Source of the DNA: Polyangiaceae bacterium
GTDB lineage: Bacteria; Myxococcota_A; Polyangia; Polyangiales; Polyangiaceae
Assembly: GCA_020846005.1 (NCBI GenBank)
Contig: JADLEQ010000079.1
Span: 1 to 46,069 of the forward strand
DNA: 46,069 bases
Direction: 5' to 3'
Positions 39,808 to 43,801 of this stretch are shown piece after piece. Both the position numbers and the translations under genes were made by a program. Numbering within the stretch: the stretch's first letter is position 1; every line of letters begins with the position of its first letter. Under the pieces are notes generated by a model. The model saw nothing but the letters and a program-made list of their open reading frames with translations. It was not told where the DNA came from and did not search any database.

Positions 39808-40824
39808 CTACCCTGCGCGGGCGACGGAGCGCGAGCGTGGCGCACGCCGGCGCGCCGGCGTCAGGCGGCGCCCGCCGCCCCGCAGCGCCTGGACGAGCCG
39901 GCGGTCGCCGAGCACGGTGACGCTCGGCCCCCACTGTCGCGCCCAGGCCAGCGCCTCGCCGAGATCCGCGGGACCGAACTCGAGCTCCAGCTCGCCGCTC
40001 CGGAGCACGCGCTCGCGCTGCCGGCGGTGCCAGACGCGGCCCCGCACGTGGCGCGCCTGCTCCGCCGTGAAGCGGACGCGGACGTGCACGGCGGCCCGAC
40101 CCTCGGCGGGGAAGAGGCTGAACGGCAGATCGACCGCGTGCTCGATCACGGCTCGCTCGATCCCGCGCGGCGGAGCGCCTGCGGCGCCCGGCGGCACCCG
40201 CTCGACCCCCGCCCCTCGGGCGGGGAGCACGAGCCGCTCGAGCGCGTACGTGCGCACGTCCCGGGCGCTCGCGGCGCCCTCCGGCACACCGGCGACGTAG
40301 ACGCGCGCGAGGTCGCGGACCACGACGCCGAGGGGCCACACGATCCGCTCCCCTCGCTCCGTGCCGTCGTAGTCGAACCGCACCGCCACGCGCGGCCGGT
40401 CTGCGGCGGCCACCAGCCACGCGCGCAGCGCCGAGAGCTGCCGCTCGCCGTAGCGGTGGGCGCCACGCACGGCCACGACCACCTGCGCCCGCCCGGGCTG
40501 CGCGCGCGCACCGAGGCTCGTGCCGGCGACGGGGAAGATGCGCCGGAGCAGCGTACGCGCCAGCGCCTGTGCCAGCTGCTCGACCGTCTCGCGCCCGTCC
40601 GGCTCGACGACGCGCACCCGGACGACCCCGCGAGGCCCGCGCTCGCGCCGCACCGAGCAGCCGAGCGCCTCGGGCGCCGCGTCGAGCAGGTTCCGCACCG
40701 TCCGCTGGCTGCACCCGAGCTCCCCGGCGAGCTCGCCGTAGGTGAGCGCTCGCCCGGAGAGGAGCGCTTCGCGGAGCCCCAGCGCGACCCGAGCCCGGGC
40801 TGCACGCGCCGGCGACCGCACCAT
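39808..40824 (-). CDS. WYL-domain transcriptional regulator
   Basis: A 338-aa protein with ATG start. Residues about 25-65 are a helix-turn-helix (TYGELAGELGCSQRTVRNLLDAAPEALG), and about 145-245 a WYL domain (VAVRFDYDGTERGERIVWPLGVVVRDLARVYVAGV, where the WYL Tyr/Leu region is replaced by variants, then RTYALERL). The C-terminal WCX-like region with RVRFTAEQARHVRGRVWHRRQRERVLRSGELELEF follows at about 255-320. WYL proteins sense ligands such as oligonucleotides or metabolites and act as repressors or activators. It is divergent from the FtsZ-like gene across 87 bp containing an imperfect palindrome, and upstream of the SDR unit. Which of these it controls is inferred from position. Confidence 0.85.
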   Translation of the reverse strand: MVRSPARAARARVALGLREALLSGRALTYGELAGELGCSQRTVRNLLDAAPEALGCSVRRERGPRGVVRVRVVEPDGRETVEQLAQALARTLLRRIFPVAGTSLGARAQPGRAQVVVAVRGAHRYGERQLSALRAWLVAAADRPRVAVRFDYDGTERGERIVWPLGVVVRDLARVYVAGVPEGAASARDVRTYALERLVLPARGAGVERVPPGAAGAPPRGIERAVIEHAVDLPFSLFPAEGRAAVHVRVRFTAEQARHVRGRVWHRRQRERVLRSGELELEFGPADLGEALAWARQWGPSVTVLGDRRLVQALRGGGRRLTPARRRAPRSRSVARAG

Positions 40825-40911: not shown

Positions 40912-41910
40912 ATGGCGACCGCCAACGGCCCCCGCGACCTCGGCCCCCGCGACCTCGGCCCCCGCGATCTCCACCCGGGCCCCGTGGTGGCGCTCGTCGG
41001 CGTCGGCGACTGGGGCGCCCGCGCGGTGCACGAGCGGACCGTGCGCCAGCTGCCGGAACGACCTCCGCACGTCGTGATGCGCGTGTGCGTCGCCTCGCGC
41101 GCGGCGCCGCGCTCGACCTGGGACGCGGTGGTGATGGCGGACGCCCCCCGAGCGGCCGGCTTCGGCGGAGCCGATCTGCGCGCGTTCGACGCCGGGCTCG
41201 TCAGAGCGCCCGTCGCCATCCTGGTGGACGACGCCGCGCCCTCGCGCGCGGGGCTCCTCGGGCGGCTCGTCGCGATGGCCCGCGCTCGGGGCGCGCTGAC
41301 GCTCGTCTGCGTGCCCGACGATCGGCCGCTCCCCGAGTGCGAGGAGCAGGCGGACGCCGTGGTGGCGCTCGGCGTGGCGTCCCGCCCGGGGACGCTCGTC
41401 GACGCCGGCGTCGCGCTCGACACGCTGCTCGCGGGGTACGAGGACCACGGCATCATCGGGTGGGACACCGAGGACTGGCACCCGCTCGTCGCGTGCTCGG
41501 GGCGCGCGACGTTTCGCTGGGCGGAGGTCGCTGGACGGCCGCGCGGCGCTCGCGCCTCGCGCGCCGCGTGCCAGGCGCTCGCGTCGTTCGACGCCCAGGC
41601 GATCGCCGAGGCCGGGGCGCTCGGGATCCTGGTCGACGGCGGCGCCGACCTCCAGATCGGCGAGGTGGCGATGGCCGTCGAGGCGCTCACCCGCGACCTC
41701 CACGACACCGTCTCGGTGATCTTCCAGGCGCGCCCCGCCCAGCCGGTGGACGGGGTCCGCGTCGGCGTGGTCGTGCTCGGGCGAGCGCGCGCCGGCGCGC
41801 GCGCCGCAGGCGGGATCGACGACGGGGCGCTCAGCGCCGGCTCGGCCGGAGCGACGGCGTCGCCTCTCGCGCGGGGAACAGCTGGCGGAGCTGCCACGCT
41901 TGAACGATGA
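40912..41910 (+). CDS. divergent FtsZ/tubulin-like protein without GTPase signature
   Basis: A 332-aa protein from ATG 40912. After three GPRDL repeats, residues about 24-175 follow the FtsZ GTPase domain: VVALVGVGDWGARAVHERT at the first loop (FtsZ GVGGGGGNAV), then VAILVDDAAPSRAGLLGRLVAMARARGALTLVCVPDD, the place of the T4 loop GGGTGTG and the helix after it. Here the loop is DDAAPSRAG, with no glycine run. The T7 loop reads GWDTEDW, keeping acidic residues at 185 and 188 (FtsZ NVDFADV). Residues 190-292 match FtsZ_C: GRATFRWAEVAGRPRGARA, AGALGILVDGGADLQIGEV, DGVRVGVVVLG. The C-terminal 40 residues are Ala/Gly-rich with no ZipA/FtsA-binding tail. GTP binding is probably lost. Its role is unknown. 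80-bp antisense overlap with the kinase gene. Confidence 0.72.
   Translation: MATANGPRDLGPRDLGPRDLHPGPVVALVGVGDWGARAVHERTVRQLPERPPHVVMRVCVASRAAPRSTWDAVVMADAPRAAGFGGADLRAFDAGLVRAPVAILVDDAAPSRAGLLGRLVAMARARGALTLVCVPDDRPLPECEEQADAVVALGVASRPGTLVDAGVALDTLLAGYEDHGIIGWDTEDWHPLVACSGRATFRWAEVAGRPRGARASRAACQALASFDAQAIAEAGALGILVDGGADLQIGEVAMAVEALTRDLHDTVSVIFQARPAQPVDGVRVGVVVLGRARAGARAAGGIDDGALSAGSAGATASPLARGTAGGAATLER
40927..40971 (+). repeat. 15-bp triplicate in the FtsZ-like gene
   Basis: Three near-identical copies of ggcccccgcgacctc (the third with gat for gac) encode GPRDL three times at residues 6-20, before the conserved domain. In-frame repeat; likely a variable linker. Confidence 0.9.
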
Positions 41911-43801
41911 GACGGCGCTGCACCTCGACCCGCTCATCGTGCGCCCAGCCGGTGAAGAGCGCGGGCAACACGACGGACGTCACCGTCGCGTAGCAGAGCG
42001 CGAGCACCATCGGCACGGCAGGGAACTCGACCCCGCGAGCGTAGAGCAGGATCCGATCCGGCTCGAAGCTGTAGGCCGGCGGGAACCACCCGAGCCACTC
42101 GACCGCGAACGGCGCGACGGTGCCCAGCGCGATGAGCGTGGTCGCGACCCGCCGCTCCTCCGCGGTCACGTGCACGGCGAAGAACGCCGCGATGCCCGCG
42201 GCCAGCGCCGGCACAGCGACGAACGGCCCGGCCACGGCGCTCGTCGCGGCCATGAGGAGCCCCGTGAGGAGGGCCAGCACGGCAGAGTGCCACCGCTGGC
42301 CGCCGACTCGCGAGCCGTAGTACGCGAAGGCAGCGCAGGCGCAGGTGAGCGACGCCATCGCGCCCACCGCGGGCCAGCTCTTCACTCCGATCCAGATCGC
42401 GAACGGCACCGACGCCAGCATGGTCGAGTAGCCGACGGCCCCGAGCCGGCTCCCACGGACACGCAGGGCGTCGAGGTAAGCCGTCACCTCCGCCTCGGCC
42501 TCGACCGGGGGCGGGCCCTTCGGATCGAGCAGCGAGTCGACGAGCAAGGCCTGCGCCTCGGCCGCCTCGGGATCCAGCGCGAGGGCGCGCACCACCTTCC
42601 GCATCGCCTCGACGCGATCGCCGGAGCTCACCCCCTCGCTCGCGAGCACGCACCGCGCCTCTCGCGTCAGCGCGTGGGCGCTCGCGCGGCGCGCCTCGCG
42701 ATCGCGATCACCCTCGAGGTGACCTTCGAGCGCGAGCGCCAGCGCTCCCGCGCTCGCGAGGCGCTCGGCCGCCGACAGCGCGGTGCAGCGCAGGCAGAGG
42801 TCGTCGAGCTCCGGCGGCACGTCGGGCCGCGCCTCGCTCGCGCGGCGCGCCTCGCCACGGCGCATCCGCTCCACCATCGCGGGCACCGGCGCGACGGGTC
42901 GGAACTTCGCCAGCGTCAGGATCTCGTACAGCACGACGCCGAGCGCGAAGACATCGGAGTGCGCACCGACCAGACGCGGATCGCCGAGCGTCTGCTCGGG
43001 CGCCATGTACCCCAGGCTGCCCACGATGTCGCCCTGTCGCGTGAGTCCAGCGCCGCCCTCGGCGGACACCGCCAGGCGGTGCTCTGGCGACACGTCGGCT
43101 TCCCGGAGGAGCTGCGCCACGCCCCAATCGAGCAGGTACACCTCGCCGTGATCGCCGAGCATGATGTTGCCGGGCTTGATGTCCCGGTGGACGACGCCGC
43201 GCTCGTGCGCGTACTCGACGGCGTGGCACACTTGGACGAACGCGGCGAGCAGGCGCCGGCGCGTGTGGCGCCGCTCCGTCTCGGGATCACGCTCGGCGAG
43301 GCGCTCCAGGATCTTGCCGAGCGTCTGGCCGCGGACTCGCTTCATCGTGAAGAGCGGCGCGCCGTCCGCGCGCTCGTCGAGGTCGTACACGGGGACGATC
43401 GCCGGATGCTCGAGCTGCCCCTGGACACACGCCTCCCGCAGGAAGCGCTGGCGAGCGCCCGGATCGCCGGTGTCGTGCAGCGTCTTGCCCGCCACGTGGC
43501 GACCGATGTTCCGGTCGTGGAGCAGCCGCACCTCCCCCATCCCCCCCGCCCCCAGCACGGGGCCGTCCTCGTACCTGGCGCCGGGCGCCACGCGCGACGC
43601 GTCCCACGCCACCGTCACGGGGACGATCGCTTGTTCCCCGGTGGCGAGGTCGAAGGCGGGCGCGCTCGAGTCGCCGAGCACGGAGAGCGTCGCCGCCGCA
43701 GAGTCCGGGGCGCTCGCCGACGCGCCGAGCAGCGTGTCGGCCATCGCGGGATCGGCGTCGGCGACGGGGCCGGGGCGGTCGGGGGGCACCATGCGCCGCA
43801 T
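41831..43801 (-). CDS. Hanks-type Ser/Thr protein kinase with multi-pass membrane C-terminus
   Basis: A 656-aa protein. Residues 1-75 are a Ser/Ala-rich leader. Kinase domain at about 77-345: glycine loop GAGGMGEV (84-91), Lys106 in HVAGKTL, catalytic HRDIKPGN (205-212), DWG at 225-227 in place of DFG (common in bacterial kinases), GSLGYMAPEQ, then the helix HSDVFALGVVLYEILT. All key residues are present, so activity is expected. A soluble helical region (about 345-425) leads to about six or seven transmembrane segments (about 430-620) without extracellular PASTA or other sensor domains, then a short basic C-terminus. Substrates are unknown; the adjacent FtsZ-like and DnaE-like proteins are candidates by position. 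The 3-prime ends of this gene and the FtsZ-like gene overlap by 80 bp. ATG 43801; ATG 43792 is possible. Confidence 0.92.
   Translation of the reverse strand: MRRMVPPDRPGPVADADPAMADTLLGASASAPDSAAATLSVLGDSSAPAFDLATGEQAIVPVTVAWDASRVAPGARYEDGPVLGAGGMGEVRLLHDRNIGRHVAGKTLHDTGDPGARQRFLREACVQGQLEHPAIVPVYDLDERADGAPLFTMKRVRGQTLGKILERLAERDPETERRHTRRRLLAAFVQVCHAVEYAHERGVVHRDIKPGNIMLGDHGEVYLLDWGVAQLLREADVSPEHRLAVSAEGGAGLTRQGDIVGSLGYMAPEQTLGDPRLVGAHSDVFALGVVLYEILTLAKFRPVAPVPAMVERMRRGEARRASEARPDVPPELDDLCLRCTALSAAERLASAGALALALEGHLEGDRDREARRASAHALTREARCVLASEGVSSGDRVEAMRKVVRALALDPEAAEAQALLVDSLLDPKGPPPVEAEAEVTAYLDALRVRGSRLGAVGYSTMLASVPFAIWIGVKSWPAVGAMASLTCACAAFAYYGSRVGGQRWHSAVLALLTGLLMAATSAVAGPFVAVPALAAGIAAFFAVHVTAEERRVATTLIALGTVAPFAVEWLGWFPPAYSFEPDRILLYARGVEFPAVPMVLALCYATVTSVVLPALFTGWAHDERVEVQRRLIVQAWQLRQLFPAREATPSLRPSRR

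Follow-up and report, generated by a model that had tools for sequence, protein, structure and literature searches.

A divergent FtsZ-derived protein predicted not to bind GTP in a Polyangiaceae bacterium, with further degenerate FtsZ copies in the dcw cluster of its genus

Results

The gene and its neighbours

The window analyzed here is a stretch of 46,069 nucleotides representing contig C79 of a Polyangiaceae genome assembly of 5.7 Mb that is 99% complete. On its forward strand, positions 40912..41910 hold an open reading frame for a degenerate FtsZ-like protein of 332 residues plus stop (P0001), identified by the frame itself, its codon signature, and matches to FtsZ_C and to an FtsZ profile. 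The frame is a real coding gene: GC content by codon position is 0.83/0.59/0.92, the third-position value being 0.92; the frame is the best of all six when scored with codon usage taken from neighbouring genes; and over residues 23-300 GC2 is 0.45-0.60 vs. 0.93-0.98 for GC3. Codon-phase contrast falls only across the last 32 codons, at the overlap with the tail of a convergent kinase gene. The N-terminal extension (40912..40974, forward strand) is not FtsZ-like and is modelled at pLDDT of about 40. A 15-bp tandem repeat at 40927-40974 encodes GPRDL three times at this N-terminus; its copy number may vary, and the true start of the protein may lie downstream of the repeat-bearing extension.

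Upstream and divergent lies a gene for a WYL/WCX-type regulator (39808..40824, reverse strand; Pfam WCX, 34.1 bits), which shares an 87-bp upstream region with the P0001 gene. Downstream and convergent lies a gene for a Ser/Thr protein kinase whose C-terminal region is membrane-like (41831..43801, reverse strand; Pfam Pkinase, 120.6 bits); the 3' end of this gene overlaps that of the P0001 gene tail-to-tail by 80 bp (41831-41910). The P0001 gene thus adjoins the WYL and kinase genes with no same-strand partner; it is located outside the dcw cluster, and so does not occupy the site between ftsQ and ftsA that marks the degenerate FtsZ genes described below for its genus.

Evidence for derivation from FtsZ

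An earlier note made from the sequence had described this protein as following FtsZ from end to end, a description that stands for its C-terminal half, with the N-terminal half resembling FtsZ in an alignment-fed model only. Against a profile built from 73 FtsZs of named genomes plus the FtsZ of the same genome, the segment 130-300 reaches 30.1 bits, where none of 854 shuffles exceeds 5.6, whereas residues 18-135 score 1.5 bits, a value equalled by 46 of 903 shuffles. Identity to FtsZ is about 25%, and the blastp match to the FtsZ of the same genome has E 3e-9. An FtsZ_C-like domain (PF12327, E 2e-5) spans residues 213-290 (41548..41781, forward strand); at 25.1 bits it falls under the Pfam gathering cut-off of 27, and calling it a good FtsZ_C domain was therefore too generous. 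The FtsZ equivalog model TIGR00065 of NCBIfam scores 19.2 bits, far under its cut-off of 295.2. No match to the Tubulin/FtsZ GTPase domain (PF00091) was found in P0001 up to E 10, and a search of the genome with this domain returned two other genes only. PHROGs gave no match for P0001, and the sole match in a PDB sequence search is weak and unrelated. By these profile and pairwise comparisons the FtsZ ancestry of the C-terminal half is established, and of that half only, because the N-terminal half does not rise above its shuffles.

The structural comparison with FtsZ that the earlier note had proposed comes out in favor of FtsZ, with a limit. AlphaFold supplied with an FtsZ alignment, which biases the model towards FtsZ, places the secondary-structure elements of P0001 in FtsZ order (pLDDT 60.5, pTM 0.52). 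The top PDB matches of this model in Foldseek are all FtsZ (E 1e-15), and VIA superposes it on FtsZ over 250 residues with Z 22 and rmsd 3.0. Prediction from the single sequence gives pLDDT 36 and is uninformative. Confidence is also low in the T7 region of the alignment-fed model, where successive residue blocks over 171-200 have pLDDT of 43, 37 and 63. We infer from the model that the N-terminal half probably has an FtsZ fold. Judged on sequence, P0001 is best named an FtsZ-derived pseudo-FtsZ, since it fails five tests that define FtsZ proper.

Nucleotide-contacting loops and the T7 loop

The T1-loop equivalent, placed by alignment and model only, is GVGDWGARA (residues 30-38; 40999..41025, forward strand), corresponding to GVGGxGGNA in FtsZ. 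The T4-loop equivalent, placed by the RARGALTLV match that follows it and by S4/H4 of the model, is DDAAPSRAG (residues 106-114; 41227..41253, forward strand), where FtsZ has GMGGGTGTG. The motif GGGTG(T/S)G is absent from the protein, and the alignments bear out its reported replacement by DDAAPSRAG. Also replaced or missing are the NTD of T2, the T3 segment, KPFxFEGxxR of T5/H5, IPN of T6 and part of H7, so that T1, T2, T3, T4, T5/H5, T6 and H7 are, as aligned, all altered or missing. That P0001 is unable to bind GTP is a well-supported inference, because every nucleotide-contacting loop is damaged and not T4 alone; the proposal of a divergent FtsZ-like protein unfit to bind GTP thus gains support from loops beyond the one on which it was based.

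The T7-loop equivalent, GIIGWDTEDW (residues 180-189; 41449..41478, forward strand), is placed by blastp and profile alignments to FtsZ. Asp185 and Asp188 are present as reported, in the columns of the two catalytic FtsZ aspartates. The loop is not intact, however: the FtsZ motif is NxDxxD and P0001 has GWDTED, with Gly183 in place of the conserved Asn. In S. aureus FtsZ, assembly requires each of three T7 residues (N208, D210 and D213) as well as R143 in H5, and N208L by itself blocks it (PMC8936486); of these four residues P0001 retains the two Asp only. Of the columns in which FtsZ conservation reaches 90% or more, P0001 keeps 13 of 52 in the N-terminal part, 8 of 31 in S5-H7, 3 of 7 in T7 and 15 of 29 in the remaining C-terminal domain. 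The T7 acids thus survive no more often than conserved columns elsewhere in the C-terminal half, and so add no separate evidence that catalysis has been selected for. P0001 lacks the FtsA-binding peptide at its C-terminus, ending in SPLARGTAGGAATLER where the canonical FtsZ of the same genome ends in DWDTPAYQRRQGGG.

Canonical ftsZ and degenerate copies in the dcw cluster

Three genes of this genome match FtsZ_C: canonical ftsZ, which the earlier note had suggested locating, the P0001 gene, and a second degenerate gene. Canonical FtsZ (P0003, 424 aa) is encoded on contig C23 and has its nearest counterparts among named genomes in Polyangiaceae (64-68%). The second degenerate protein, P0002, is encoded on the same contig (L021:5268-6224 of G000:C23, forward strand), between ftsQ and ftsA in the dcw cluster; its gene overlaps the ftsQ stop codon and lies 5.5 kb upstream of ftsZ. 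A same-genus genome carries a degenerate copy, P0004, likewise between ftsQ and ftsA (L060:6399-7460 of G001:C110, forward strand), giving the genus the dcw gene order ftsQ - pseudo-ftsZ - ftsA - ftsZ.

Both P0002 and P0004 are coding, and the T4 loop is broken in each. At the T7 acid positions P0002 has Q/E and P0004 E/D; P0002 retains half of the T4 glycines and no T7 Asp. Conservation of the T7 acids, which the earlier note had thought worth asking about, is thus not a shared rule: T4 is broken in both paralogues, yet both have partly lost the acids. The T1 glycine pattern GxGxxG is common to P0001, P0002 and P0004. The two dcw copies are 27% identical to each other, vs. 75% for the canonical FtsZs of the same two genomes, which means that the degenerate copies evolve far faster than FtsZ.

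Between the P0002 gene and ftsA, about 4 kb of unrelated genes are found (L021:6225-10220), comprising an antisense ORF and a large cysteine-rich ORF; this segment is missing from the same-genus genome G001. In most of the other mapped Polyangiaceae loci, about 80-180 bp separate ftsQ from ftsA; none of the mapped loci has an FtsZ-like ORF there, the larger gaps of L165, L167 and L169 included. At the ftsQ-ftsA junction of the last of these (L169:3126-4625 of G012) is an unrelated ORF of ~460 aa, possibly CapA-like by inspection. Among 184 genomes of the order, the genus (g1) is alone in its family in having more than one FtsZ_C gene. Arguably, the dcw-embedded degenerate FtsZ, present in both genus genomes compared, is a stronger lead than P0001.

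Search for orthologues

No orthologue of P0001 was found in 59 relatives, 184 genomes of the order or 284 of the phylum, in pattern searches of genome contigs and viral contigs, or by tblastn in phages and plasmids. Its matches in relatives are FtsZ (E 1e-5 to 5e-9), and those checked are canonical FtsZ (e.g., L186). So far P0001 has thus been seen in a single myxobacterial genome, with two of its genus compared; the other, G001, is 90% complete, and the gene may have arisen at the level of the species or of the genus. Relatives carry no more than distant homologues of the WYL and kinase neighbours, so they offer no empty or orthologous site for comparison; beside the WYL homologues of L064-L067, the FtsZ profile detects no FtsZ-like gene. 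Identity of P0001 to P0002 and P0004 is about 29% over local segments only, a value that does not establish orthology. In a tree, the grouping of the three degenerate proteins is not interpretable, with branch lengths at the limit (10); the tree is unusable for ancestry, and descent of P0001 from P0002 rather than from ftsZ is not claimed.

Discussion

Comparison with known FtsZ homologues

P0001 resembles the canonical FtsZ of its genome in the C-terminal domain, in the modelled order of elements and in the T7 Asp pair; it differs in lacking GGGTGTG, the T7 Asn and the C-terminal peptide, in its degraded or shortened T1-T6 and H7, and in the location of its gene outside the dcw cluster. P0002 and P0004 are like P0001 in length (320-350 aa), in keeping an FtsZ_C-like domain and the T1 GxGxxG, in the broken T4 and in having no C-terminal peptide. 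Unlike P0001, they lie between ftsQ and ftsA, carry Q/E and E/D as T7 acids, and have N-terminal halves that still score with the FtsZ profile, P0002 at 34.7 bits and P0004 at 17.4.

A pseudo-FtsZ without the GTP motif is already known in kind, and P0001 is a further variant. Motif-lacking FtsZ paralogues have been described, above all from archaea (PMC2875224), and Nmar_1262 of Nitrosopumilus maritimus is an FtsZ homologue that has no conserved GTP-binding motif and is reported not to polymerise (PMC3684127). Unlike P0001, Nmar_1262 is archaeal, reportedly has an unconserved T7 region as well, and works beside Cdv rather than a canonical FtsZ. The FtsZ paralogues of Agrobacterium tumefaciens fall short of the full-length protein bearing linker and CTP (PMC13170164). 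Within the order, a different family also has second FtsZs of about 350 aa (L062:2187-3227, forward strand; L061:2194-3273, reverse strand). Both groups are like P0001 in being extra to a canonical FtsZ and in having no C-terminal linker or peptide; in the L061 and L062 proteins, unlike P0001, GGGTGTG and the full T7 loop are intact. The full set of nucleotide-binding motifs is described for FtsZl2, and the GGGTG(S/T)G signature loop for FtsZl1 (Makarova and Koonin 2010, PMC2875224); like P0001 they are divergent members of the FtsZ-tubulin superfamily outside canonical division, but P0001 does not have their intact signature. Within open-licence papers, no literature on FtsZ paralogues in myxobacteria was found.

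Possible roles

The reading tentatively preferred, at somewhat less than an even chance, is a pseudo-FtsZ that would modulate canonical FtsZ by one-sided docking and thereby cap or antagonise its filaments. A duplicated ftsZ would have retained its C-terminal (activation) domain and probably its general fold, and would have lost nucleotide binding and the C-terminal FtsA-binding peptide, and with them GTP-driven filaments of its own. In S. aureus FtsZ filaments two neighbouring subunits share the active site, the top one supplying its T7 loop and the bottom one its nucleotide face (PMC8936486). Given this architecture, loss of the nucleotide site together with retention of the C-terminal domain predicts docking on one side: the C-terminal/T7 face of P0001 may dock onto an FtsZ subunit at its exposed GTP face, and the ruined nucleotide face of P0001 would then block further subunit addition. 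The presence of canonical ftsZ in the same genome, the degenerate FtsZ at one and the same dcw site in both genus members, and the C-terminal domain being the best-kept part of P0001 are consistent with such a role. The missing T7 Asn makes it less likely, as N208L alone stops assembly in S. aureus, and it has against it the lack of an orthologue, of a dcw location and of a same-strand partner, along with the low-confidence T7 model.

Nearly as likely as capping or antagonism of FtsZ, and still unlikely taken by itself, is a role outside division in which FtsZ is left untouched and the FtsZ fold now serves as a scaffold or a module for ligand binding, perhaps linked to the kinase or the WYL regulator. 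The position of the gene, alone on its strand beside those two genes and away from the dcw cluster, fits this role, as do the missing C-terminal peptide, the lost T7 Asn, and surfaces too divergent for an FtsZ interface to be predicted; the GxGxxG at T1 in all three degenerate copies could mean another ligand. There is, however, no positive sign of another partner, and the best-kept part of P0001 is the very domain that bears the T7 face.

It is distinctly improbable that P0001 copolymerises, a possibility raised in the earlier note, sitting within FtsZ filaments, hydrolysing the GTP of a neighbour and so shortening or destabilising them. Retention of Asp185 and Asp188 suggests this role; the ruined nucleotide face allows only one side to join a filament, the T7 Asn is gone, the two Asp are kept at background rate, and the sister paralogues P0002 and P0004 do not keep the acids. 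Next in order, and likewise improbable, is a functionless duplicate on its way to becoming a pseudogene, for which the very long branch, the lack of an orthologue and the many lost key residues would speak. Neutral decay is unlikely because drift to about 25% identity with FtsZ should have erased both the frame and the domain and added indels; the 332-codon frame is instead intact with strong codon-phase structure, and the C-terminal domain is still recognisable.

A long shot is a split-site system in which canonical FtsZ, P0001 and P0002 would hold defined positions in division filaments and cap or tune them; the losses would be complementary (half of the T4 glycines and no T7 Asp in P0002, both T7 Asp and no T4 in P0001), with duties divided much as between alpha- and beta-tubulin. 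Chance similarity of an unrelated protein, to which the N-terminal shuffles and the single-sequence model could point, is largely refuted and scarcely credible given the C-terminal score beyond all shuffles and the separate matches to FtsZ_C and to TIGR00065; by sequence, the PDB yields a single match, weak and unrelated.

Most bacteria have one slowly evolving FtsZ. Nucleotide-blind, fast-evolving copies beside a normal one would be a natural experiment in which surfaces of FtsZ matter without GTP, and the degenerate copies of this genus may amount to a built-in FtsZ antagonist.
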